Source: an uncultured Lachnospira sp.
Lineage (GTDB): Bacteria > Bacillota > Clostridia > Lachnospirales > Lachnospiraceae
Direction of reading: 5' to 3'
Length of the DNA stretch: 64,000 nucleotides
NCBI GenBank assembly: GCA_934343805.1
Contig: CAKRIN010000007.1
Location: forward strand, 1 to 64,000
Part shown: positions 7,419 to 63,379 of the stretch, one piece after another
How the letters are laid out: each line of letters opens with the position of its first letter
How positions within the stretch are numbered: the first letter of the stretch is position 1
Notes under the pieces: generated by a model
Databases searched by the model: none
Seen by the model: only the letters and a program-made list of their open reading frames with translations
What the model was told of the DNA's origin: nothing
Program-made: the position numbers and the translations under genes

Positions 7419-9248
7419 ATGGGTGAAGTTAATGAATTATTTACAAAAGAGAATGTTGAGAAGATTTATGTTCCGGATATAGTCAAAGATGATCTTCTCA
7501 GTATTATAGAGGAAAAGCTTAAAAAAGCAGGGTTTTATTACAGAGTTGCTTATCGTATTAAAGCACCTGACTCAATGCTTAATAAGCTTATTCTTAAGGA
7601 CTATAGAAGACCGGGTACAGATAATGAAGACAAAAAAATGCAGGATCTTATAGGAATAAGAATTATTCTTTATTACGCTGATGATGTTGATATAGTCAGA
7701 AATTTTCTTGATTCAATATTTTCAATGCCGGGCGTTTGGAATACAACAGAGGCCAGTGAGTATGAATTCAGGGCGATGAAGATAAATGGTATATTTAAGC
7801 TTCCTGGATATCTTAGCAAGACAATAGTTAATCCTGAACTTAGTGAATATGTTGATGATACATTTGAAATTCAGGTAAGAACTAATTCTTTTGAGGGCTG
7901 GCATGAGATAGAGCATGATATGAGATACAAGGGCTCTGCTTTTGGAACCGGCAATGAAGCACTAGCAAGAAAGATGAACAGTATTCTTGCAACATTGGAG
8001 CTGTGTGATGATTCAGTTGTCGGACTGATTGAAGATTTAGGACATCAGCATTATAAGGACAGAAAGTGGAATTACATGTTGAGATGTCATTACAGATTGA
8101 AGTTTACAAGCGAACCACTTCATCCGTATATTGAGGAAATATTTAACAACGATACAGAGCTTGCCAAGAAGTTCTATAAGTTTAAGAGGGAACCACTTAT
8201 AAAGCAGTTGTGGGATAACACAGGAGATAAGGGAAACGAAATTACAGTTAATAATATTGTTAGAATAGTTAATCAGATAGGACCGGATGATGATCGGCTA
8301 AAAGAAGCATTTGCAAGAATCGAGCATGAGAAGAAGCAGGAAACAGATAATATAGGCAAAAGAAGAAGATTTGAACCGTTTAAACAACTGGGTTCATATA
8401 TGGTATTTAAGGCGGATACATATATTGATCTTAGCAATCTGTCCATGCAGGATGCATTCAGAAAGGCCACAGGATATATATATTCATGGGTTAAGTCCCG
8501 CTTTGAGGATGTTTTTGAAGACCTTCCAGACAGTGCACAGTCATATATTAATGTTGAACCTGGATATTCGGTTAATCTTGAATATGACAGCGACAGCATG
8601 TATTTTAAAGAAAAAACAACACATCTTGATACTAAAATACCTACAAGGGTGTGGATATCAGAAGCGGTAGTCTGCAAAGACAAAGACAGATTAAGGTTCA
8701 AGGTTTCTAACAGATATGCTGAACCATCAGAAAGATACAGAGATAATGAAAATGTCCTGTTTTCACGTCCGAATTTCTTTGGCGAAATTGCAGATAACAT
8801 AGGTATAGTTGATGTTGAGAGAATGAGGGAATCTGTTCGTTATGTTGAGGACAGCAGGGATTATGATGAACTTACAACTTTGATTGCTGATGAAAACCGG
8901 GCATTTCCTGTTGTCGTATTTATGGCTACAGATGGAAGATGGCTTGACAAGTTTGACATGAACTATTTTGCATATCTTGTTGGATATTATGCTCACATAA
9001 AGATGATAAGAAGTCCTTATGAATCCCGCAAATTTGCAAAGGATTATGGGCTTAAAATGGACGAGTGCGCAGATTCAATAACTGTATTTTATCCTGGAAA
9101 GGAACCATACACGAGCTATAAAACAGACATATTCCATACAACATTTGAAGTTATAAAGGTTGAAAAGAGAAAGTATTGGAATGAAAATGGCTGTAGAGCA
9201 TACAGAAGGAAACTTGTTTCTGAGATAAGAGAGAATAATGTTTTATAA
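7419..9248 (+). CDS. RelA/SpoT synthetase-domain protein without HD domain, with long novel C-terminus
   Basis: Probable (p)ppGpp or related alarmone synthetase. Residues ~35-175 form a RelA/SpoT nucleotidyltransferase domain: YRIKAPDSMLNKL, the Mg-binding QDLIGIRI (Asp76), FEIQVRT (Glu150) and the following WHEIEHDMRYK. The G-loop reads LPGYLSKTIV (Tyr131), where classical enzymes have GYxSLHT, so a lysine replaces the usual histidine. There is no N-terminal HD hydrolase and no TGS/ACT region. Residues ~220-609 match nothing I recognise. The bifunctional Rel is encoded separately at 18 kb, so this is an additional synthetase-like protein. Operon position after adenosine deaminase and before a receiver domain suggests nucleotide-linked signalling (inference). 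Confidence 0.7.
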   Translation: MGEVNELFTKENVEKIYVPDIVKDDLLSIIEEKLKKAGFYYRVAYRIKAPDSMLNKLILKDYRRPGTDNEDKKMQDLIGIRIILYYADDVDIVRNFLDSIFSMPGVWNTTEASEYEFRAMKINGIFKLPGYLSKTIVNPELSEYVDDTFEIQVRTNSFEGWHEIEHDMRYKGSAFGTGNEALARKMNSILATLELCDDSVVGLIEDLGHQHYKDRKWNYMLRCHYRLKFTSEPLHPYIEEIFNNDTELAKKFYKFKREPLIKQLWDNTGDKGNEITVNNIVRIVNQIGPDDDRLKEAFARIEHEKKQETDNIGKRRRFEPFKQLGSYMVFKADTYIDLSNLSMQDAFRKATGYIYSWVKSRFEDVFEDLPDSAQSYINVEPGYSVNLEYDSDSMYFKEKTTHLDTKIPTRVWISEAVVCKDKDRLRFKVSNRYAEPSERYRDNENVLFSRPNFFGEIADNIGIVDVERMRESVRYVEDSRDYDELTTLIADENRAFPVVVFMATDGRWLDKFDMNYFAYLVGYYAHIKMIRSPYESRKFAKDYGLKMDECADSITVFYPGKEPYTSYKTDIFHTTFEVIKVEKRKYWNENGCRAYRRKLVSEIRENNVL

Positions 9249-9268
9249 TGGTATATGGGGAAAACTGA

Positions 9269-9679
9269 ATGGAAGAATTAGGTATATGTAATAACTCCGG
9301 AGCTAAGACAGTTCTTGTGGTTGATGATAATGAATTTAACAGGGAGCTTGTCAGGGATATACTTGAAGACGAAGATATAATAGTGTATGAAGCGGAAGAC
9401 GGAATGAAAGCTGTTGAAATTATAAGGTCAGATATTCATAAGAAAATAGATGTTGTTCTTATGGATATCAGAATGCCGGTTATGGATGGAATTGAAGCAA
9501 CGTGTTTAATCAGGAAGGGGAATGGATTAAATGCAAATGTGCCGATAATAGCAATGACTGCCAATACATTTGAAGCAGATTGTAAGGAATTGTTATCCAA
9601 GGGAGTGAACGGAGTGATTGCCAAGCCGGTAGATGTCAATACGCTGGCTGACCAAATAGCAAAACTGGCAGGATGGTAA
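9269..9679 (+). CDS. Single-domain response regulator (receiver)
   Basis: A 136-aa CheY-like receiver with no output domain. It has the acidic pair in VVDDNEFNRELV, the phosphoacceptor in LMDIRMPVMDG, the conserved Thr in AMTANTF and the Lys in IAKPVD. This form is typical of receivers from hybrid kinases or phosphorelays. It lies 20 nt after the alarmone-synthetase-like gene and is likely co-transcribed. No histidine kinase is in the window, so its partner is unknown. The terminator hairpin begins within its last codons. Confidence 0.85.
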   Translation: MEELGICNNSGAKTVLVVDDNEFNRELVRDILEDEDIIVYEAEDGMKAVEIIRSDIHKKIDVVLMDIRMPVMDGIEATCLIRKGNGLNANVPIIAMTANTFEADCKELLSKGVNGVIAKPVDVNTLADQIAKLAGW

Positions 9680-9702
9680 TAAGACCATTCTGCCAGTTTT
9701 GC
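9659..9702. terminator. Bidirectional terminator overlapping a stop codon
   Basis: A 13-bp perfect outer stem (GCAAAACTGGCAG with CTGCCAGTTTTGC) plus an inner ATGGT/ACCAT pair. It lies between the convergent receiver and DegV genes; the receiver stop codon sits in the loop. A/T runs within the stem give termination signals in both directions. Confidence 0.75.
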
Positions 9703-9722
9703 TATATATGTATAATGAATGA

Positions 9723-10592
9723 CTATCGTGATTCGCCCATAAAGAAAAGAGCAACTGTTCCAGGGCCGGAATGTGTACCGATAGTTGGACATATATAGTT
9801 AATCCATATATTGTCTATTCCAAAGCGTTTTTTTACGAGATCAGCAACAAACTGAGCGTCTTCTAAACAGTCTCCATGACTGATGAAAACAACATCGTTC
9901 TTATCCCGATATGAACCAATAAGTTCTTCCATGCGGTCAACTAAAGCAATCAGAGATTTCTTACGTCCGCGTACTTTTCCTATATTAATAAGTCTGCCTT
10001 CATTATCGACATGAAGAATAGGCTTGATGCTGGCTAATGTACCAATAATAGCAGTTGTTTTGGAAACCCTTCCGCCTCTATATAAGTGGTTGAGATCATC
10101 AACTGTAAAATTATGTACAAAGTTAAGAATATGTTTATTGAGAAAATCTATAATCTCATCCATTGATTTTCCGTTTTTCTTCATTTCAACGGCTTTATAA
10201 ACAACAAGACCTTCACCCATTGATGCAGATAAAGAATCTATAACTACAACACGGGCATCCGGATGTTCTTCCATTACTTCATCAGCAGCAATACATGCAT
10301 TATTATAGCTGCTTGACAGGGCAGAAGAGAATGCAATATGAAGAATGTCATAACCTTCATTAACACGTTTTTCAAAGATTGTTTTGCAATCCTGAGGATT
10401 ACAGGCCATAGTTGTAGGCATTTCTCCATTTCTCATTCTGGCAAAAAATTCTTTTTCGGGTATTATATTATCTGTTCCATATACAACTTCACCAAAAGCA
10501 TAAAAAAGAGTGTGGATATCTATATTGTTTTCTTTTACATAACTATTGGGAAGGTCAGCAGTTGTATCTGTTGATATTAAAAAATCTCTCAT
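9723..10592 (-). CDS. DegV-family fatty-acid-binding protein
   Basis: A 289-aa cytoplasmic DegV-fold protein. Family members bind a fatty acid and present it to the FakA kinase for acyl-phosphate formation. Visible family features are the N-terminal STDTTADLP, the AFSSALSSSYNNACIAADE stretch with serines that bind the carboxylate, YRGGRVSKTTAIIGTLASIKPIL, and a C-terminal THSGPGTVALFF. AAAGGA precedes the start. A FakA-like C-terminal domain is encoded alone at 44.4 kb, but no full FakA is in the window. Confidence 0.85.
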   Translation of the reverse strand: MRDFLISTDTTADLPNSYVKENNIDIHTLFYAFGEVVYGTDNIIPEKEFFARMRNGEMPTTMACNPQDCKTIFEKRVNEGYDILHIAFSSALSSSYNNACIAADEVMEEHPDARVVVIDSLSASMGEGLVVYKAVEMKKNGKSMDEIIDFLNKHILNFVHNFTVDDLNHLYRGGRVSKTTAIIGTLASIKPILHVDNEGRLINIGKVRGRKKSLIALVDRMEELIGSYRDKNDVVFISHGDCLEDAQFVADLVKKRFGIDNIWINYICPTIGTHSGPGTVALFFMGESR

Positions 10593-44269: not shown

Positions 44270-44368
44270 TACTTGAAGTTATGGCTGGGATGTGAGATAA
44301 TGTGCCAGGTTAGCCAGGTAAAACACACTGACTGCCACACATAAAGACAGATTATGGAGGATTGTTTT

Positions 44369-44662
44369 ATGTCAGATATACATAGCGTAGATGTTGAGGA
44401 TGATCAGTTTGCATATCGTTATGATACACAGCTTCTTATTGACAGAAGAGATGAAGATTTAGATGAGGATGTAATTGCAGATTATATCACTGAGCATTTT
44501 GAGGGAAACTGCCTGATTGCAGCAGGTGATGAGGATCTTATCAAGATACATTTCCATACTAATGAGCCATGGAAAGTACTTGAGTACTGCAGTACTATTG
44601 GCGAGATATATGATATTGTTGTTGAGGATATGATTCGTCAGTCAGCAGGACTTCATGGATAA
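44369..44662 (+). CDS. Stand-alone FakA/YloV C-terminal domain protein
   Basis: A 97-aa protein resembling only the C-terminal domain of FakA/YloV fatty acid kinase: FAYRYDTQLLID, GNCLIAAGDEDLIKIHFHTNEPWKVLEY and EIYDIVVEDMIRQ. The kinase domain is absent and no larger remnant is nearby, so it may be a genuine single-domain protein and not a fragment. The ATG at 44369 has GGAGG 8 nt upstream; the ATG at 44354 contains that site. A DegV lipid-binding partner is encoded at 9.7 kb. Confidence 0.75.
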   Translation: MSDIHSVDVEDDQFAYRYDTQLLIDRRDEDLDEDVIADYITEHFEGNCLIAAGDEDLIKIHFHTNEPWKVLEYCSTIGEIYDIVVEDMIRQSAGLHG

Positions 44663-44762: not shown

Positions 44763-44791
44763 TTGACACTAATGTGCCGATAATCTAAAAT
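44763..44791 (+). promoter_or_regulatory. Promoter of the XrtG operon
   Basis: TTGACA (44763-44768), a 17-bp spacer and TAAAAT (44786-44791) form a near-consensus sigma-A promoter. The expected start near 44798 leaves an ~88-nt leader before the first gene. Confidence 0.75.
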
Positions 44792-44885
44792 ATATATAAG
44801 ATATGAAGAAATTTGAATATATATGAGTGAATATGGTGAAATGTATAATTCCATTATTTATATACGAAGAAAGAAGGGAATTACC

Positions 44886-46076
44886 ATGAAATACAATTTT
44901 AAGATAATGTCGGCTCTGGCGGTATTAATGGCTTTGATTATGATAATACCCGCTGTTAGTGTATCAGCAGATCCGGTTTACAATGGAATTACAATTGACG
45001 GAGATTTTTCTGATTGGGATGCTGTGACAAAATATGATGCTGAGTGTCCTAATGAATGGCATAAGAACTGCTTATCACAGGCTGCAATGGTGTTTGATGG
45101 AGATTATGCATACATATATATCAAGGATGGAGATGGTCCTGACTGGGAAGGTGCCTTTGGTGCAGGGTTATATAGTAATGCAAGATATTCAATTGTAACA
45201 GATCTTGGATATGAGCTGGTTTTTCAGCTGACAAGGGATGGCAAGGTTAATGGTGTTGATGGTATTGAATGTGTCCATGCAGACAGACAATGGGAGATAT
45301 CGGTTCCTAAAAGTGTAATACCAGAATACAACAAGACTATTTCATTTGGTTTATATGAGATGGAGCCATTTGTAAAGGATGTTGCCAATCTTAAGGATGA
45401 TGGTTCAGATGATAATGTAATATATGATATTAGATATGACGGATTGTATGGGGACTGGGACAGGTATCCTCATGTAAGACTGGGATATACAACAGCCGGA
45501 ACACATCATAATATAGCTGATGGATATGGTGCAATATATAGTGATGGCAATATTGTACTTGGACATGTATTTACAGAACTACCTGCACATCTTAATGAGA
45601 AAGGTGGAGAATTAACATCAGCAGTTTCGTTTAAACTGAATGATTCAAAATATTTTTATGCAAGAATGGTTACTGTTGATGAGAATGGTAATATTAACTG
45701 GAATCCCAGAACAAACGGATTAGATAATGGTACATATGAGTTCTATATATTTGCGGGTGATGAAGGTCATGATATTACCAATATGTCCCAACTTAATGAT
45801 TATATCAGATGTTATGGTAAGATGATGGTAACCATTGGTGATAGCAAAGATCAATGTGAATATTACATTGACTTTAATGAACTGGCTAAGAAATATGGCT
45901 GGGAATCAAGTGATTTTAAACAGATAGAAGCTCAGTTTGGAAGAATAGGACAGCAATGGATTGGAACTGCCGGAGCATCTTCGGGTGCCTGGTTAGGGCT
46001 GTTTATATGTATATGTGCCGTATGTGGGGTAGTTGTTTATAAGAACAGGAAAGGTAATAAGCAGGTAAAGAATTAA
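44886..46076 (+). CDS. Firmicu-CTERM surface protein, predicted XrtG substrate
   Basis: A 396-aa secreted protein. The signal peptide (residues 1-28) ends SVSA. The mature part begins with a DOMON/CBM9-like ITIDGDFSDWDAV segment, and a second GDWD (YDGLYGDWDRY) occurs near residue 196. The C-terminus is a sorting signal: a small-residue motif (GTAGASSGAWLG, ~360-371), a TM helix (~368-385) and a basic tail (KNRKGNK). This is the Firmicu-CTERM layout recognised by exosortase G. The ATG at 44886 has AAGGGA upstream. The stop overlaps the XrtG start by 1 nt. It is probably cleaved and anchored outside the cell; the ligand is unknown. Confidence 0.8.
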   Translation: MKYNFKIMSALAVLMALIMIIPAVSVSADPVYNGITIDGDFSDWDAVTKYDAECPNEWHKNCLSQAAMVFDGDYAYIYIKDGDGPDWEGAFGAGLYSNARYSIVTDLGYELVFQLTRDGKVNGVDGIECVHADRQWEISVPKSVIPEYNKTISFGLYEMEPFVKDVANLKDDGSDDNVIYDIRYDGLYGDWDRYPHVRLGYTTAGTHHNIADGYGAIYSDGNIVLGHVFTELPAHLNEKGGELTSAVSFKLNDSKYFYARMVTVDENGNINWNPRTNGLDNGTYEFYIFAGDEGHDITNMSQLNDYIRCYGKMMVTIGDSKDQCEYYIDFNELAKKYGWESSDFKQIEAQFGRIGQQWIGTAGASSGAWLGLFICICAVCGVVVYKNRKGNKQVKN

Positions 46077-46681
46077 TGAAACCAATTATGGTAATAGCTA
46101 TTATTGTTATCTGGCTGTATATATTATCTGTACTAAAGAGAGCAAGGCTGCATGCATGGGAATTTGTGTGGGGAAGCCTTGGACTGTTTGTGATAATGAT
46201 GCTTACAATTCAACCGGTTCTTACCATGCCATTGGCAAGGTGCGTTGCGGCTATGGCAGGAATTGTTGGAGATATTACCGGAACATTTACCGCATATTTC
46301 AAATATGGAATAATATTTATACATACAGGAGTTACATCAACAACTCTGCTGATTGATTTTGAGTGTTCTGGAATAATAGAGATTATGGCATTCATATCAT
46401 TATTGGCTTTCTTTAATGTGTACAATATAAGTGAGAAGATAATGATAGGAATAGGTGGATTTTGCTATATAATGCTTTGCAATACGTTAAGAATCATAAT
46501 GATATGTATTGCTGTTCATTTCGGAGGAATGGATGTTTACTATGTTGTACATACATTCATAGGAAGAATATTCTTTTATGTTCTTAGTATTGCTTTATAT
46601 TTTTACGTGTTTACCAAACCACAGATTATTAAAATGAAAGTAGGAAATTTCTCATATGGGAATAGTAAAAGTAATTCTTAA
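46076..46681 (+). CDS. xrtG: Exosortase G (XrtG)
   Basis: A 201-aa multi-pass membrane cysteine transpeptidase-like protein. It shows the exosortase/archaeosortase triad: Cys97 in DFECSGIIE, Arg139 in NTLRI and His159 in VHTFIGRIFFY. XrtG is the exosortase form found in Gram-positive bacteria. It should cleave the Firmicu-CTERM tail and transfer the protein to an unknown acceptor. The next gene starts inside its last 26 nt, implying translational coupling. The family name is from memory of the TIGRFAM definitions. Confidence 0.85.
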   Translation: MKPIMVIAIIVIWLYILSVLKRARLHAWEFVWGSLGLFVIMMLTIQPVLTMPLARCVAAMAGIVGDITGTFTAYFKYGIIFIHTGVTSTTLLIDFECSGIIEIMAFISLLAFFNVYNISEKIMIGIGGFCYIMLCNTLRIIMICIAVHFGGMDVYYVVHTFIGRIFFYVLSIALYFYVFTKPQIIKMKVGNFSYGNSKSNS

Positions 46682-48101
46682 TTCATTTCTTTTCTGGGGT
46701 GGGTGGATAATAATTCCCTTCATAATGGAAATTGTACCTGCCCTGGGAAGTATATATTTTCTTATCAGGAGAAATCTGCGGCATAAGCGCAATCTGAAAA
46801 AGTTAAAAGTTTTTCCAGAGATTTCGCTTATCATTCCTGTGTACAATTCTGCTGATACATTATATGGATGTATCAAGTCGATTAATGATAGTACGTATCC
46901 CAATGACAAGATTAGAATATTCCTTGTTAATAATAAGGGACAGGATAATAGCTTTGAAATATATGCAGAGTGTCAGAAAAAGTTTCCAGAACTGCTTATG
47001 CAGTGGATGAATGCTGAACAGGGAAAGTCCAGGGCACTTAATCTTGCTTTATACAATAGTGAGGGAAAGTATATTATTAACCTTGACAGTGACGGAATGC
47101 TTGAAAAGAATGCACTGATTAACATGATAACCAGGTTTGAGAACAATACAAACATTAACTGTATGACAGGAGCGATACTTACAGTTCCAGAGAAAATCAA
47201 GGAATATAAAAAGTTTTTTCCAAGATTAATCAGAAATCTTGAGTTTATGGAATATGCACAGGCATTTCTTGCAGGAAGAAGTTATGCTTCAGAACTTAAT
47301 TCTGTATATACTTTATCGGGAGCATTTTCAGCTTTTAGAAAGTCGGTTGTGTTAAAGTCATGGATGTATAATACAGATACTATATGTGAAGATACACATA
47401 TAACATTCCAGATGCGCTATCTGCAGAATGAGAAAGTAGAAGTGTGTGAAGAGGCATTATTTTTTGTTGATCCGATAGAGAATCTTAATAAGTTATATAC
47501 TCAGAGACAGCGGTGGCAGAGAGGAAGCCTTGAAGTATCCAAAATGTTTATGAATAAGGATTTTAAGCTTACAGGAATATTTAAGGATATTGGAATAAAG
47601 ACTTTGTTATATGATCATACATTTGCATTTCCAAGAATGATATGGTATCTGGCATTAATGTGCCTTATTGTTATTGGATATTCTGGAAAGACTGTTCTTA
47701 TGTCTACTGGTATAATATTTTTGTTATACATAGTTATAGGATATTTGTATTTTATAACAGTTGCATATTTTCTAAGGATTAATAAGGATATAAGGACATA
47801 TTACATTAATCACTGGTGGTGTGTGCTGTTTCTTTCGCTTTTTAATTTTGTAATATTTTTTATAAGACTGGCAGGAATAATTAATAGCATAGAAACGGAT
47901 AGTTCATGGAAGACTATGACATTTACAGAAGAATGTCATGCATTTGCAGATATTATAAGAAGTGATTTTGCCAAGCCGGTGGCTATAATCAGAAATATAC
48001 GCAGGACTATTAATTATTATGAAGAATCAGATTTTATTGGAACAGATAACAGTAAAGTGATGAATACAGAAAATGAGCAAAATTCCGATAAGGAGAAATG
48101 A
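46656..48101 (+). CDS. Exosortase G-associated family 2 glycosyltransferase
   Basis: A 481-aa membrane-bound processive-type GT2. An N-terminal TM (~6-36) is followed by the GT-A domain, with SLIIPVYNSADTL, NLDSDGM (donor/metal site), a CEDTHITFQMR acid motif and QRQRWQRG. Four or so C-terminal TM helices follow (~330-420). The design resembles cellulose/hyaluronan synthase-like enzymes, so it may both make and move a glycan. Its constant association with XrtG suggests the glycan is the anchor for the sorted protein (inference). Its start overlaps xrtG. Confidence 0.85.
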   Translation: MGIVKVILNSFLFWGGWIIIPFIMEIVPALGSIYFLIRRNLRHKRNLKKLKVFPEISLIIPVYNSADTLYGCIKSINDSTYPNDKIRIFLVNNKGQDNSFEIYAECQKKFPELLMQWMNAEQGKSRALNLALYNSEGKYIINLDSDGMLEKNALINMITRFENNTNINCMTGAILTVPEKIKEYKKFFPRLIRNLEFMEYAQAFLAGRSYASELNSVYTLSGAFSAFRKSVVLKSWMYNTDTICEDTHITFQMRYLQNEKVEVCEEALFFVDPIENLNKLYTQRQRWQRGSLEVSKMFMNKDFKLTGIFKDIGIKTLLYDHTFAFPRMIWYLALMCLIVIGYSGKTVLMSTGIIFLLYIVIGYLYFITVAYFLRINKDIRTYYINHWWCVLFLSLFNFVIFFIRLAGIINSIETDSSWKTMTFTEECHAFADIIRSDFAKPVAIIRNIRRTINYYEESDFIGTDNSKVMNTENEQNSDKEK

Positions 48102-49207
48102 GGCTTATTATGAGAAAGCACAATCTGAAATTACATAATAAAAGAATATTAAAGTCAGATAATAAACACATCCTTGGATTTACAACGCTTTGCGTTATAT
48201 TATTTTCAATAATTGCGGCACTACTTGCGTACACAAGAATTATTTCATACGAAGATGGTATTCTTGAAATATGTGCAAAGCAGCAGGATGCATATGTACA
48301 GCTTGTACTTGACCAGATTAACCTTAAAAGTAATCGTGATGATGAACAGATTATTAATGAGATTCTTAGTACGATGGATGCCTCGTCTAATAAATACTGG
48401 ATATTCTCTAAGAACCAGTCAATGCTTTTTGTTAAGGATGTACTTGAAACTAACAGATATAAGGGTATAACAGCGGCATCATATTACAGTTCTGACAGTG
48501 CCAAAGCTTTTCTTGATAATCTGCAGCTTGATTATGTAACTCATGACAATATTATGATTAATGAGAAAGTATATATTGCATCGGGAGTATCATTTGAATA
48601 TAAGGATGAAGAGTATAAGCTGTGTCTGCTTACAGATAAGAGTGTCCTTCTTGATAATAACAGCTATTTGCAGATTAAGATAGAAATGGAAACATTTGTT
48701 GTAATAATATTACTTGCGCTTGTTGTCACTTCTATGATATTTGCTTATACAGTTAAGAAACTGAGCATAAAGAACAGTTTGCAGGATGATAATATTTCAT
48801 CTCTTAATGTAATGTTGTCAAAGATGAATGACAGACTTATGGAAAAGGATTTACATGATACCAAGGATAATGTGTGGGAACAGAATGCCATTAAGCCGTT
48901 TATGGACAGAATAGCTGAACGTAATATTACGCCAGTTACATTTGTTCATATTCATTGCACTGATGTAACATACAGAGACAGATTTATATCAAAGGCTGTG
49001 ATAATGCTTGACAAAAATGTTTTACGTTTCAGATATTTGGAATGTGATATTGTATTGTTGTGCGTTCAGATTGATATGAATCGCACAAAGGAGAGTATTA
49101 ATGTCCTGAAAGATGAGCATACAATGATAGACAATGTTGAGAATATTGCAGGCAGAGAGGATGTACTTAAAATTCAGAAAAAATACAACCTGCATGATGA
49201 GGATTGA
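48098..49207 (+). CDS. Two-TM protein of the XrtG operon with possible degenerate GGDEF-like domain
   Basis: A 369-aa membrane protein with TM1 ~27-47, an extracellular region of ~150 residues, TM2 ~207-229, then a cytoplasmic domain. The cytoplasmic part reads VTFVHIHCTDVTYRD...FRYLECDIVLLCV. This has the strand pattern of a GGDEF domain but none of its catalytic residues (a weak inference). It overlaps the glycosyltransferase stop (ATGA). An in-frame ATG at 48110 with TGAGG upstream is an equally good start. It may sense or regulate the system, or be a structural component. No named family recognised. Confidence 0.6.
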   Translation: MRLIMRKHNLKLHNKRILKSDNKHILGFTTLCVILFSIIAALLAYTRIISYEDGILEICAKQQDAYVQLVLDQINLKSNRDDEQIINEILSTMDASSNKYWIFSKNQSMLFVKDVLETNRYKGITAASYYSSDSAKAFLDNLQLDYVTHDNIMINEKVYIASGVSFEYKDEEYKLCLLTDKSVLLDNNSYLQIKIEMETFVVIILLALVVTSMIFAYTVKKLSIKNSLQDDNISSLNVMLSKMNDRLMEKDLHDTKDNVWEQNAIKPFMDRIAERNITPVTFVHIHCTDVTYRDRFISKAVIMLDKNVLRFRYLECDIVLLCVQIDMNRTKESINVLKDEHTMIDNVENIAGREDVLKIQKKYNLHDED

Positions 49208-49234
49208 TTTTGTTATCAGGAAAGAAGGCAGAAT

Positions 49235-49714
49235 ATGGCAGTTAATTTGTATCGGGAATACAGAATGAAATTCTATCTTAATATGAGACATTACATAATT
49301 ATTAATGGAACAAAGGGTGAGATTCACCCTCATACATGGGAGTTTGCCTTAGATATAAAATTTGGAAGAAGTTCGTTCGTTGAATTTAATATATTTGAAA
49401 AAGGAATATCTGAATTTCTGGAAAAATATCAGAATAAGGTACTGAATGAAGAATACCCTTTTGATGGAATGCTTCCAACAATTGAGAATGTTACAGATTA
49501 TTTCTCACAGAAATTTTATGAGATAATATATGATATAGGAGGAATGCTTACTAGTGTTGAAGCAAGTGAGACTCCAACCAGAAGTTATATCGTTAATATT
49601 TCAGAACAGGAAGAACATGAAATTATGAATAGAAAGGCTGATAAACAGATATTGTCAGAAGTTATGGATTCTGTACTTGATGAGATAGCAGCCGATAATA
49701 AACAGCCAGAGTAG
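49235..49714 (+). CDS. 6-pyruvoyl-tetrahydropterin synthase-like protein of the XrtG system
   Basis: A 159-aa protein with the PTPS/QueD fold signature. Putative zinc histidines are His19, His31 and His33 (FYLNMRHY, GEIHPHTWEF), and SVEASETPTRSYIV matches the conserved Glu strand that binds a pterin. The catalytic Cys/Asp/His set of true PTPS is not evident, so it may bind a pterin-like ligand or act in a different reaction. PTPS-related proteins are a known but unexplained part of XrtG loci. AGAAGG lies upstream of the ATG. Confidence 0.75.
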   Translation: MAVNLYREYRMKFYLNMRHYIIINGTKGEIHPHTWEFALDIKFGRSSFVEFNIFEKGISEFLEKYQNKVLNEEYPFDGMLPTIENVTDYFSQKFYEIIYDIGGMLTSVEASETPTRSYIVNISEQEEHEIMNRKADKQILSEVMDSVLDEIAADNKQPE

Positions 49715-49731
49715 GCAGATTGGAGTTACAG

Positions 49732-52170
49732 TTGAAAAAGAACAGATCAACATATTTGCTTTTTCTTATGCCATTGATATATGCAGCTGTATCTGTAATT
49801 GTTGTGTGGTTTGTCAGAACAAGTGGAACATATCCGCTTGGCTCAGATACAATGTATCATATATACAGGGGCAACTATGTATACAATTCCATAAAAGCAG
49901 GTAACTTGTATCCGATGTATGATCCGATGTGGTATAACGGCGTTGAATTATTACGTTTCTGGGCGCCATTGCCTGCTTATTTTATTGCATTATGCCAATT
50001 GATTGCAGGTGGAAGCCAGATGGGTGGCTACCTGGTGTTTGTAGGAGCAATATGCTTTTGGGGAGCTTTACCATGGCTTTTTGCAGGCTATAAACTGGAA
50101 AGACCATTCCTTGGAGCATTTATGGGACTGATATGGTTCTTTATGCCTAATAATCTCGTTGCGTTCTTTGCTGAAGGTAATCTGGCAAGGTCACTAAGCA
50201 TGGTATTTCTGCCAGTGTTTATATATGCAGCTGCAATGTATTTAAGGTATATGTACTTAAGGTATATTCCTATGATGATAATAAGCTTTATGTTTATAAT
50301 TATGTGTCATTTAGGATATGCAGGTATGGTTGCTTTGGCGGTAATATTATACTGTATAGTATATCTTATACAAAAAGGCAGAAAGAAAGCAGTGGCAGAT
50401 GTAATAATATCGATGCTTGCCGGGTTTATGATACTGGGAATATGGATTGTTGCATCACTTAATGGAGGAATAACTTCACTTGATAATTCAGAAAATATGG
50501 CTAATTTTTTCCAGAATATATGGGTGTCACTTAATCCTGTAAGAAGGATTAAGAATGGTAATGTAGATTTCTATTTTGGACTGGCAGCAGCTATTATTGC
50601 TGTATTTGGCGCATTTTTTGGATATAAGAAATCAAGGACTGGATTTATTACAGCAATTATAATTCTTATACTTACTACTAATGGTATATATCCGGTTCTT
50701 AAATTACTTCCGGGAAGCCAGTATTTATGGATGCTGAGATTTATTTCAATAGCATTGTGCATGATTCTTATGAGCTTTCTTATGTGGAACACATTAAAAA
50801 AGCCTTTTGTTGTGATAATGTGTGTATTGCTCCTTGCTGATATCATTCCATCTGTGACACTGATTACTGGTAATCATAATTCGGAATCTGTAGAAGACAG
50901 AATAGAAACAACACAGGATAACACGCTGATATCTAAGGCAAAAGAGATTACCACACAGAGAATGGCATTGATGGATGAGAGCAGTCTTGGATCAATGGGA
51001 GCATGGCTTGTTTCAGGTTATGGTAATGGCGTGGCCTCAACATTTGGAGCAGGAAGAGAGGCTGCAAATACAGCTGTTAATATAGTTAATCTCAATAAAG
51101 CTCTTGCGAACAGTAAGTTTTATTACATGTTTGACAGATGTCTTGAACTTGGCAATGATACTGTGCTTGTGAGGAAATCACTTCTTAAACAATATGGAGA
51201 TACTATAGATAATCTTGATATGGCAGCAACTGCTAATGGATATTCTATGGTTGAAGATAATGGAACATATAGATTGTATCATATTGATGTAAGTGGAAAC
51301 TGGGGAACGGTATGTAATTACGAGGCAATTGCTATAGGTACAGGTGCGGACAATATTACGATGCAGTTCCCTGTAGCAAAAGAAGGAAAGTCTGATAATC
51401 TTAATGATTACACATATAAGGAGCTGGCAGAGTATAAAGAAATATTTCTGGATGGATTCACATATGATGATAAGGAGGAAGCAGAGCGTCTGCTTATAAG
51501 ACTTAGCCAGTCTGGAGTGAGAGTTATTATATATGCTGATGGAATTCCTCTTAACAAAGATACACATACACAGACATTTCTTGGGGTTACATGCAGTTCA
51601 ATTGCATTTAGTAACGGATATCCAGATATGGATACAAGAATAGGAAAGATATATCCGGATATGTTTCCGCAAGGGCATACAACCTGGAATACTGTATATC
51701 TTGATGGACTTGACAGGACATGGGGAACATTCTACGATAACGGACTTAAACTTGCCTTTTATGGAACTGTTAAGAATGAAAATATAGTTGTAACAGGACT
51801 TAATCTCACATATTTCTATAGCCTCACAGGAGATCAGGCTATAGGAAAGCTTCTGGATAATATGACTGGACTTACATCGGAAAAACTGCCATTAAGAAAG
51901 ATTGTTCCATTAAAGATAGAATATTCTGATAACAGCATAAGTGTTATATCTAATAGTGATAATGTTAATACAACTCTGTCTTATCATGATATATTTAATT
52001 CTGAATCAGAGATATATGGAGAGAATAATCTGTTGTATGTTAACAAAGGAACAACGGTTATTAACATGAAAGTTCCGTATTTATGGCAGGGTGCTGTAAT
52101 AAGTGGATTAGGAATACTTATAACTATTATATGGATTATAATTAAAAGACGCAGACTCAGCCATTTATAA
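49732..52170 (+). CDS. Large polytopic membrane protein (PTPS-related, GT-C/YfhO-like) of the XrtG system
   Basis: An ~812-aa protein with about eleven N-terminal TM helices (residues ~1-385), a large extracellular domain and one C-terminal TM plus basic tail (RRRLSHL). The loop after TM1 has PLGSDTMYHIYRGNYVYNS, like the acidic first loop of GT-C glycosyltransferases using lipid-linked sugars. The family is usually annotated as 6-pyruvoyl-tetrahydropterin synthase-related membrane protein. The start is placed at TTG 49732, with GGAG 6 nt upstream; TTG 49720 is the alternative. A plausible role is glycan transfer in surface anchoring (inference). Confidence 0.75.
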   Translation: MKKNRSTYLLFLMPLIYAAVSVIVVWFVRTSGTYPLGSDTMYHIYRGNYVYNSIKAGNLYPMYDPMWYNGVELLRFWAPLPAYFIALCQLIAGGSQMGGYLVFVGAICFWGALPWLFAGYKLERPFLGAFMGLIWFFMPNNLVAFFAEGNLARSLSMVFLPVFIYAAAMYLRYMYLRYIPMMIISFMFIIMCHLGYAGMVALAVILYCIVYLIQKGRKKAVADVIISMLAGFMILGIWIVASLNGGITSLDNSENMANFFQNIWVSLNPVRRIKNGNVDFYFGLAAAIIAVFGAFFGYKKSRTGFITAIIILILTTNGIYPVLKLLPGSQYLWMLRFISIALCMILMSFLMWNTLKKPFVVIMCVLLLADIIPSVTLITGNHNSESVEDRIETTQDNTLISKAKEITTQRMALMDESSLGSMGAWLVSGYGNGVASTFGAGREAANTAVNIVNLNKALANSKFYYMFDRCLELGNDTVLVRKSLLKQYGDTIDNLDMAATANGYSMVEDNGTYRLYHIDVSGNWGTVCNYEAIAIGTGADNITMQFPVAKEGKSDNLNDYTYKELAEYKEIFLDGFTYDDKEEAERLLIRLSQSGVRVIIYADGIPLNKDTHTQTFLGVTCSSIAFSNGYPDMDTRIGKIYPDMFPQGHTTWNTVYLDGLDRTWGTFYDNGLKLAFYGTVKNENIVVTGLNLTYFYSLTGDQAIGKLLDNMTGLTSEKLPLRKIVPLKIEYSDNSISVISNSDNVNTTLSYHDIFNSESEIYGENNLLYVNKGTTVINMKVPYLWQGAVISGLGILITIIWIIIKRRRLSHL

Positions 52171-52191
52171 CAGGCTGGGTCTGCGTTTTTT
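52149..52191. terminator. Terminator closing the XrtG operon
   Basis: A 14-bp stem (ACGCAGACTCAGCC with GGCTGGGTCTGCGT, one G-U) overlaps the last codons of the membrane protein gene and is followed by a T-run. It is also placed to end the convergent antiporter transcript. Confidence 0.85.
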
Positions 52192-61457: not shown

Positions 61458-62738
61458 ATGAAAGGGTGTTATCTAGGAATGACGGGGCATGATGCATTCA
61501 ATGAAAGAATAAGAGAAATTGTCAGTGCAGGAGAACACAAAGTGGTTCTTATGGCCCTTGATATTAGTAATTTTAAATATATTAACGATTTCTATGGAAT
61601 GGATGAAGGCGACAAGGTAATGAAGGATATCGCAGATTATTATTTTGTCAATGAGCCATTATGCCTTGCATCACATGGAATAGGTTTTGATCAGTTCAGA
61701 GCTGCTTATTGCGTTGATGGCATGACAAAGGAAGATATTGTTGATTATATTACTAAGAAAAATACTGAATTTGAAGCTTTGCTGTCAAGCAGGTATCCTC
61801 TGGTTTATCAGCATGTATATGTTGGATTATATTTTTATGATGATGCGTCACTTGATGTAAGAATGGCAGTAGACAGAGCTAATCTTGCCAAGAAATCAAC
61901 CAAGGGAAGATTCGACATACCATGTTGTGTATATTCACAGGATAATTGCAATGAATATCTGGAACATATGGATATGTCCAATGAATTTGTCAAAGCATGT
62001 AAGGAAGACAGAATAGAGGTGTATTATCAGCCTAAGATTTCTGTTTCAGAGAAAAAGGCGGTAGGAGCAGAGGCTCTGGTAAGAATGAAATCCAATTATG
62101 GAACTGTTATTTCTCCTGCAAAGTTCATTCCTGTTCTTGAAGATACAGGGATGATAGGAAAGCTTGATGATATTATGCTTGAGAAGGTATTCAGGTTTCA
62201 GAGAATGTCAATGGATAAAGGTTTTGCTCCAATTCCGGTATCAGTTAATATATCACGGCAGAGGTTTACAAGTTCCGATTTGCTAAAATATGTCCTTAGT
62301 CTGCAGGAAAAATATCATGTGAGTTCGGAGTATATAGAACTGGAAATACTTGAAACTACATTTATTGATGCTCTCGATGCAATGGTTGATGTAATTAATG
62401 CATTAAGACAGAGAGGATTCAGAATTAACGTTGATGATTTTGGCTCAGGTTATTCGTCGCTTAACCAGATAGCAAGCATACCGGCTGACACAATCAAGTT
62501 TGACAGGGTTTTTGCGAGCAGATCGTTAAAGAATGATAAGGGACGTACTGTTATTAAATCATTAATAGAAATGCTTAAGAGCGTTGATTATGATCTTGTG
62601 TTTGAAGGTGTTGAAACTAAAGAAGAACTGGATCTTGTTGTAGAATATGGATGCGATGTTATTCAGGGATTTTATTTTGAAAAGCCAATCCCTGAACAGG
62701 AATTTATATCAAAATATCTGTCAACAGGGAATTTTTAA
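61458..62738 (+). CDS. Degenerate GGDEF plus EAL domain protein, probable c-di-GMP phosphodiesterase
   Basis: A 426-aa cytoplasmic signalling protein. The N-terminal GGDEF-like domain (~1-165) keeps VVLMALDISNFKYINDFYG but has SHGIGFDQF in place of the catalytic GGDEF, so it should not make c-di-GMP. The EAL domain (~175-426) looks complete: GAEALVRM, VNIS, EILET, VDDFGSGYSS, the IKFD lysine, EGVET and QGFYFEKP. It therefore probably degrades c-di-GMP. The next gene starts 2 nt after its stop codon. AAGGAG precedes the ATG. Confidence 0.9.
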   Translation: MKGCYLGMTGHDAFNERIREIVSAGEHKVVLMALDISNFKYINDFYGMDEGDKVMKDIADYYFVNEPLCLASHGIGFDQFRAAYCVDGMTKEDIVDYITKKNTEFEALLSSRYPLVYQHVYVGLYFYDDASLDVRMAVDRANLAKKSTKGRFDIPCCVYSQDNCNEYLEHMDMSNEFVKACKEDRIEVYYQPKISVSEKKAVGAEALVRMKSNYGTVISPAKFIPVLEDTGMIGKLDDIMLEKVFRFQRMSMDKGFAPIPVSVNISRQRFTSSDLLKYVLSLQEKYHVSSEYIELEILETTFIDALDAMVDVINALRQRGFRINVDDFGSGYSSLNQIASIPADTIKFDRVFASRSLKNDKGRTVIKSLIEMLKSVDYDLVFEGVETKEELDLVVEYGCDVIQGFYFEKPIPEQEFISKYLSTGNF

Positions 62739-62740
62739 GT

Positions 62741-63379
62741 ATGAATAATATAAAAATTAAAGACAATGAGCTGGGAGAATATATTGTCAATGATTTCAAA
62801 AGCGGCATTGAGCATGGTGTTCTTGTAGCTAATCTTGCATATGCTCTTGCTATCAGGCTCGGACTTGGTGAAGAAGATGCATATGAACTCAGGGTGGCAG
62901 GAATGGTGCATGATATTGGAAAACTTAAATTATCAGAATATCTTTATGGAAGAAATTCTGTAGAATTATCGGTTGAAGAAATGAAATATATGAGAATGCA
63001 CTCTAAAATCAGCTTTGATGTATTGAAAAATTATGATTATTCGGATAATATAATGAAAGTTGTTCTCTGGCACCATGAGTGTTACGATGGAAGCGGATAT
63101 CCTGATAACCTTAAAGGAACTGATATTCCGTTAGGAGCACGTATACTTAAGGTGGTGGATGAATTTGCTGCGCTGATATCTGACAGACCGTATAGAAAGG
63201 CATTTAATATTGATACGGCAGTTGATATTCTTATTGAAGAAATCAAGAATCTTGATATGAGAGTATTTATTGAATTTCAGCGGATGATTCACGAGGAAGA
63301 AACATTTGAATTGATTAGGAACAGCAAAATTAAACTTGATGCTCTTAGTCTTGAAGATATTCTATCCTTCGCAGATTAG
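62741..63379 (+). CDS. HD-GYP domain protein, probable c-di-GMP phosphodiesterase
   Basis: A 212-aa single-domain HD-GYP protein. It has the HD pair in MVHDIGKLKL, a following histidine in MRMHSKISFDVL, and the HHECYDGSGYPDNLKG motif with GYP intact, then DIPLGARILKVVDEFAALISDRPYR. HD-GYP enzymes hydrolyse c-di-GMP to pGpG or GMP. It is 2 nt after the EAL gene, so two phosphodiesterases of different folds are co-expressed; they may act in sequence. Confidence 0.9.
   Translation: MNNIKIKDNELGEYIVNDFKSGIEHGVLVANLAYALAIRLGLGEEDAYELRVAGMVHDIGKLKLSEYLYGRNSVELSVEEMKYMRMHSKISFDVLKNYDYSDNIMKVVLWHHECYDGSGYPDNLKGTDIPLGARILKVVDEFAALISDRPYRKAFNIDTAVDILIEEIKNLDMRVFIEFQRMIHEEETFELIRNSKIKLDALSLEDILSFAD

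Follow-up and report, generated by a model that had tools for sequence, protein, structure and literature searches.

An exosortase G operon of an uncultured Lachnospira with one dedicated client, two putative glycan enzymes and a sensor-like subunit, and a related clade with a fusion of client and enzyme that has no catalytic cysteine

Archaeosortase A and exosortase G (XrtG) share a Cys/Arg/His chemistry. According to the available part of PMC7157517, the archaeosortase A/PGF-CTERM system also resembles that of XrtG in pairing a membrane sorting enzyme with a tripartite C-terminal tail, but differs in that its clients are reported to carry a C-terminal lipid and in that its neighbours can be lipid genes, whereas those of xrtG are glycan genes. 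An XrtG system of Lactiplantibacillus plantarum is reported to be over-expressed in interferon-inducing strains, and the set is given, in the portion of PMC12854382 consulted, as client, XrtG and two glycosyltransferases only. A third system, pssA-E of Listeria, includes the family 2 glycosyltransferase (GT2) PssC, the BcsB-like PssD and the degenerate GGDEF protein PssE, a receptor of cyclic di-GMP (c-di-GMP) needed for the polymer made by PssC, which is similar to synthases of poly-N-acetylglucosamine (PNAG) and cellulose; the excerpt of PMC4125290 that reports this mentions no exosortase. Here we describe an operon in a stretch of 64,000 nucleotides (nt) from an uncultured Lachnospira sp. 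(contig CAKRIN010000007.1, assembly GCA_934343805.1; hereafter the window), in which the same four families as in the XrtG/Firmicu-CTERM system (TIGR03110, TIGR03111, TIGR03112 and TIGR04145) score above their cut-offs. Judged by its sequence, the operon belongs to the known XrtG system, and this clostridial form adds to the L. plantarum set a membrane protein that we call P4.

Six genes, all on the + strand, follow one another from 44886 to 52170 in the order client, xrtG, GT2, P4, 6-pyruvoyl tetrahydropterin synthase (PTPS)-fold protein and GT-C protein; as a preliminary description made from the sequence alone had stated, they are coupled by overlaps of 1 nt (46076), 26 nt (46656-46681) and 4 nt (48098-48101); gaps of 27 and 5 nt follow. 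That description had announced a complete XrtG set containing an exosortase of 201 amino acids and a GT2 enzyme, and the family search agrees for five of the six products, which all exceed curated cut-offs: the client (TIGR04145, 94 bits against 50), XrtG (TIGR03110, 195.6 against 102.75), GT2 (TIGR03111, 610.1 against 363.95), the PTPS-fold protein (TIGR03112, 116.5 against 69.35) and the GT-C protein (PF10131, 447.8 against 26.4); P4 reaches no cut-off. Conservation in relatives, likewise expected, was examined in the best 80 of 198 related loci (L027-L106). All six families are present in 71 of these 80 loci (some cut at the last gene), so the set is more than a chance assembly, and eight of the other nine are interrupted by contig ends. 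Matches to TIGR03110 occur in 7 of 41 relatives; at class level 13 of 391 genomes have one and at phylum level 13 of 398 (9 of the latter above the cut-off), and on these counts the six-gene set is conserved yet patchily distributed. Of the genomes compared, the nearest, G001, has 22% of sampled words in common with the window. In 15 of the 71 complete loci the GT-C gene is placed between client and xrtG.

The client (44886..46076, 396 amino acids) consists of a signal peptide, two beta-rich lobes and a C-terminal sorting tail, and its AlphaFold2 model has a mean predicted local distance difference test (pLDDT) score of 87.2. Its likely start is the ATG at 44886, behind GAAAGAAGGGA, rather than the alternative at 44823. 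The tail (45966..46073) is made of a TAGASSG box (45966-45986), a hydrophobic helix and the basic end KNRKGNKQVKN; with the position next to xrtG, this architecture agrees with the TIGR04145 score. Across 49 clients G363 and S365 of the box are invariant and G367 nearly so, and a similar box, of the type TAG[TA]S[ST]G, was found in 66 of 78 clients. A DGxFxDW motif in the ectodomain is reminiscent of CBM9-like carbohydrate-binding modules. That the operon has a single built-in substrate was borne out in a search for further Firmicu-CTERM tails covering 14 of the 19 XrtG-positive genomes among the relatives and the class (G008, G196, G259, G330 and G384 were left out): in 14/14 every TIGR04145 match lies in one frame beside xrtG, and the additional matches are repeats inside that same frame. 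The client match of genome G375 falls below the cut-off. In the close relatives L028-L031 the client frames measure about 589-609 amino acids, compared with 396 in the window, and the N-terminal part of the client seems to have been lost or gained within the genus.

XrtG (46076..46681, 201 amino acids) carries the triad that had been read from the sequence, with the codons of Cys97 at 46364-46366, Arg139 at 46490-46492 and His159 at 46550-46552, and this triad is invariant in 17 aligned XrtG proteins. In a larger alignment of 110 rows, some genomes being counted twice, it is kept in 102, and the other eight are four genomes (G503, G443, G637 and G560), each entered twice, in which client ectodomain and XrtG form one protein of 398-400 amino acids and the catalytic Cys is replaced by Asn, with the codon AAT in all four. 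Each of these genomes has one TIGR03110 match, and none of the four has a TIGR04145 match. A database search with one fused protein, in which the 7999 candidates sharing most words were scored, gave 48 proteins from sources including Syntrophomonas and Peptococcaceae (47 of 388-403 amino acids and one partial, P0168). The Cys is kept in 0/48 (35 Asn, 13 Ser), the Arg in all 48 and the His in 44, with Gln in the other four. Fusion deletes the sorting tail, since the sequence ...GDIQWAPFP continues directly into the first helix of XrtG, where separate clients enter their own tail. Among 49 further matches, to the nearest unfused XrtG, all three residues are kept in 47; the two exceptions are P0216, a truncated fused protein whose XrtG part is unaligned over the triad, and P0197, which has Ser, measures 202 amino acids, lies on a contig of 1239 bases and is probably a cut fused gene. 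The fused clade has a tree support of 99/96, and with P0197 placed within the clade this tree takes two changes of the fused label; an earlier tree sampled one in four of L027-L106 and one in two of the fused proteins, L061 being left out of it and of the client alignment. GT2 adjoins the fused gene in L151, L152 and L155, and PTPS/GT-C genes in L152, L154 and L155, L151 and L154 being short contigs.

P4 (48098..49207, 369 amino acids) had been described as an unfamiliar protein with two transmembrane segments. It indeed belongs to no Pfam or NCBIfam family above cut-off, and the description can be amended to that of a membrane sensor-like protein with a predicted degenerate GGDEF end. In its AlphaFold2 model (pLDDT 82.7), residues 254-364 (48857..49189) adopt the GGDEF fold (PF00990), with no Pfam match above the cut-off; LECDI replaces the GGDEF motif and there is no RxxD I-site, so that P4 has the GG[DE]EF signature of an active diguanylate cyclase no more than the site of an I-site receptor, and a role as catalytic cyclase is rejected. 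A relative of P4 in L143 passes the Pfam GGDEF cut-off. An hhalign comparison of P4 with GGDEF gave an E-value of 0.003, and a control with the N-terminal part of P4 gave a probability of 1%. Because the sequence profile by itself is weak, the assignment draws on the model and the L143 relative. Within the genus, the genomes that have P4 are those that have XrtG. Like Listeria pss, the operon places a PNAG/cellulose-type GT2 beside a degenerate-GGDEF protein; unlike P4, PssE is reported in the accessible part of PMC4125290 to bind c-di-GMP through an I-site, and unlike PssE, P4 has an extracytoplasmic sensor-like part, in an operon without BcsB. At L149:274-14001 (genome G375) the XrtG genes are followed, without a change of strand, by GH8, degenerate-GGDEF, DUF2334, GT2 and BcsB genes, a series that, at this one locus, recalls the Listeria system. 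In the open-licence literature searched, we found no account of P4 as a degenerate-GGDEF core subunit nor of the fused Cys-less clade, and both appear new to us.

The PTPS-fold protein (49235..49714, 159 amino acids) shares with 6-pyruvoyl tetrahydropterin synthase/QueD (PF01242) the fold family, three zinc-type histidines (H19, H31 and H33) and a late Glu (E112), all kept in 73/73 downstream copies, but differs from it in working beside, or fused to, a GT-C protein and in the replacement of its catalytic positions. The pterin-fold family that had been proposed holds, and the catalytic Cys and Asp-His pair of an active QueD/PTPS enzyme are absent from the window protein. Where five QueD-type proteins of these genomes, aligned with it, have Cys, Asp and His, it has Lys27, Gln66 and Asn67; at the Asp position all 73 downstream copies have Gln, at the His position all 73 have Asn, Asp, Gly or Glu, and at the Cys position K, Q, R, E, N or P stands in at least 71 of the 73. 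With the Asp-His pair and, as far as counted, the Cys missing, the protein is unlikely to carry out ordinary pterin-synthase chemistry. In a more distant set of 20 further loci, 7 encode the protein as a fusion with the GT-C protein, and L138 encodes it as a fusion with a P4-type sensor; we infer that it acts in structure or in ligand sensing. Of the 80 related loci, 36 have another, shorter PTPS-like gene immediately upstream of the client (e.g., L106:4737-5096), and its three histidines are kept in 36/36.

GT2 (46656..48101, 481 amino acids) is of processive type, and its motifs DSD (144-146), ED (245-246) and QRQRW (283-287), which we take to be marks of a processive synthase, are invariant in 79/79 aligned proteins. 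Against the PNAG synthase family PgaC/IcaA (TIGR03937) it scores 126.7 bits, below the cut-off of 422.3, and is related to that family without being a member. In 12 of the 80 loci the GT2 frame reaches 946-994 amino acids; both of those tested, L035 (909-3866) and L074 (10581-13541), carry a C-terminal sulfatase-type PF00884 domain, a fusion that suggests a decorated glycan. The last product is a PTPS_related membrane protein and a putative glycosyltransferase (49720..52170), whose family, PF10131, is assigned to the GT-C clan in the part of PMC7801869 consulted. The GT-C-like nature claimed for it holds; as to length, the frame has 816 amino acids from the TTG at 49720, and the 812 first given are obtained from a second TTG at 49732.

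The reading that we favour, with a confidence just short of even, is that the six products form a membrane machine producing a surface glycan in response to an external signal, in which XrtG would cut the client tail and the ectodomain would stay beside the machine. The P4 ectodomain would sense something and its pseudo-GGDEF end would pass the signal to GT2, much as PssE is reported to be required for the PssC polymer in Listeria; the PTPS-fold protein, which other lineages have fused to the GT-C protein, would be a subunit of the latter that binds a ligand or has a structural part; and the polymer would be a beta-glycan of PNAG/cellulose type, with a phosphate- or sulfate-type decoration in lineages where GT2 carries PF00884. 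Cys97 of XrtG would attack near the TAGASSG box, and the ectodomain would end on a local acceptor. The nucleophile has disappeared in those proteins whose gene ties client to XrtG and which have no box; most simply, the usual outcome of the reaction would be an ectodomain retained on the outside of the membrane, close to the machine. Acceptors that would suit this end state are a lipid, a lipid-linked glycan and XrtG itself; a distant wall polymer would suit it less well, though it may still apply should the clade have changed function.

Several observations weigh against this reading. No biochemistry on any XrtG is given in the parts of the cited literature consulted. For the client fold, comparison with the PDB gave no confident match, and at L080, the ninth incomplete locus, no client adjoins xrtG. 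For P4, the GGDEF identity is based on the model plus distant relatives: the window protein has no GGDEF match in Pfam, GGDEF is not among the 25 most often matched of 118 Pfam families in the 83 aligned members (the window's protein and 82 of 120 listed among 530), and the hhalign match has a probability of 10%. With the canonical c-di-GMP sites absent, P4 may bind no nucleotide; its profile matches 8 of the 20 more distant loci, several of the remaining ones being short, and as far as these go P4 is not universal to XrtG; and genome G020 has a further partial relative on contig C111, apart from its XrtG contig. The fused clade, most simply, had one origin, so that its 48 proteins amount to about one event, and it may have changed function. 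Finally, in the Lachnospiraceae metagenome bin L061 a single frame of 623 amino acids (8448-10319) encodes both client and XrtG and has lost neither the sorting box nor Cys, Arg and His, the box and half of the client's helix being joined to the first helix of XrtG. This frame may have arisen recently, may be cleaved in cis or may stem from faulty assembly; since it keeps the Cys, fusion as such does not, on the available sequences, entail Cys loss, and the Cys-less clade is also without the box.

The preliminary description had suggested that a protein is fixed to a surface polymer, and this was not established: the fused clade without nucleophile keeps GT2 and PTPS/GT-C, for which reason we prefer a membrane end state to transfer onto a distant polymer. 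Ligation, in which XrtG would cut the client and transfer its new C-terminus onto the GT2/GT-C glycan, the fused clade being a derived loss, is somewhat unlikely; XrtG, client, GT2 and GT-C are constantly linked, the triad is intact and the first described exosortases track exopolysaccharide genes (PMC1569441, in the part available), but Cys-based transfer is impossible in the fused clade, and a general route of wall anchoring would not be expected to have a single dedicated client in each genome. Unlikely too, if worth stating, is a version of the favoured scheme in which XrtG is a tether rather than an exporter, its chemistry binding the dedicated ectodomain to the glycan-making complex through XrtG or a partner as acceptor, until fusion replaced it in Syntrophomonas-type bacteria; the active site would then have decayed from Cys to Ser or Asn, and in some proteins afterwards from His to Gln. 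Rather improbable is lipid anchoring as by archaeosortase A, in which XrtG would swap the C-terminal helix of the client for a membrane lipid and the glycan genes would be linked without providing the acceptor: the tripartite tail is the same, archaeosortase A clients are reported to receive such a lipid (PMC7157517, same excerpt), and the fused form has an equivalent topology, its ectodomain being carried by a membrane protein, but the operon has no lipid-synthesis gene while its glycan genes are constant. We are equally doubtful of the view that P4 is a plain membrane sensor, with a C-terminal alpha/beta domain that resembles GGDEF and no more, and without a nucleotide-signalling role, as the missing motif and I-site, the lack of a Pfam match and the weak profile would allow, the fold of the model and the L143 relative being what speaks for GGDEF. 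Independent repeated loss of the XrtG Cys is not supported, the fused clade having most simply one origin, and a rule that every fusion loses the Cys is at odds with L061.

The single promoter and terminator proposed for the operon were both located as candidates on the + strand, with different outcomes. The sigma-A-like site TTGACA-17-TAAAAT at 44763..44791 matches 11 of 12 consensus letters and has the top score among 52 promoter-like sites in 10 kb; since shuffles yield 53.6, the presence of such a site is not significant, and the promoter is suggestive only. The intrinsic-terminator-like stem with T run at 52171..52191 is one of 10 in a sequence scan, against 3.6 expected. Upstream, an open reading frame of 102 amino acids (44354-44662), whose match to a FakA-like kinase (62.8 bits) is confined to the middle domain, is probably a gene remnant. 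About 9 kb downstream of the operon lie c-di-GMP turnover genes (61458-63379): the first product combines an incomplete GGDEF domain (34.7 bits) with a complete EAL domain (215.6 bits), and the next is an HD_5 (HD-GYP-type) protein.

A natural clade with client and enzyme in one chain, and with the nucleophile gone, hints at the purpose of the XrtG reaction. P4, for its part, would link exosortases with the regulation of exopolysaccharide synthesis by GGDEF-type proteins, and if the tether version is true, the exosortase fold of the fused proteins would act as a scaffold, without catalysis, in a glycan synthase that is under the control of a signal.

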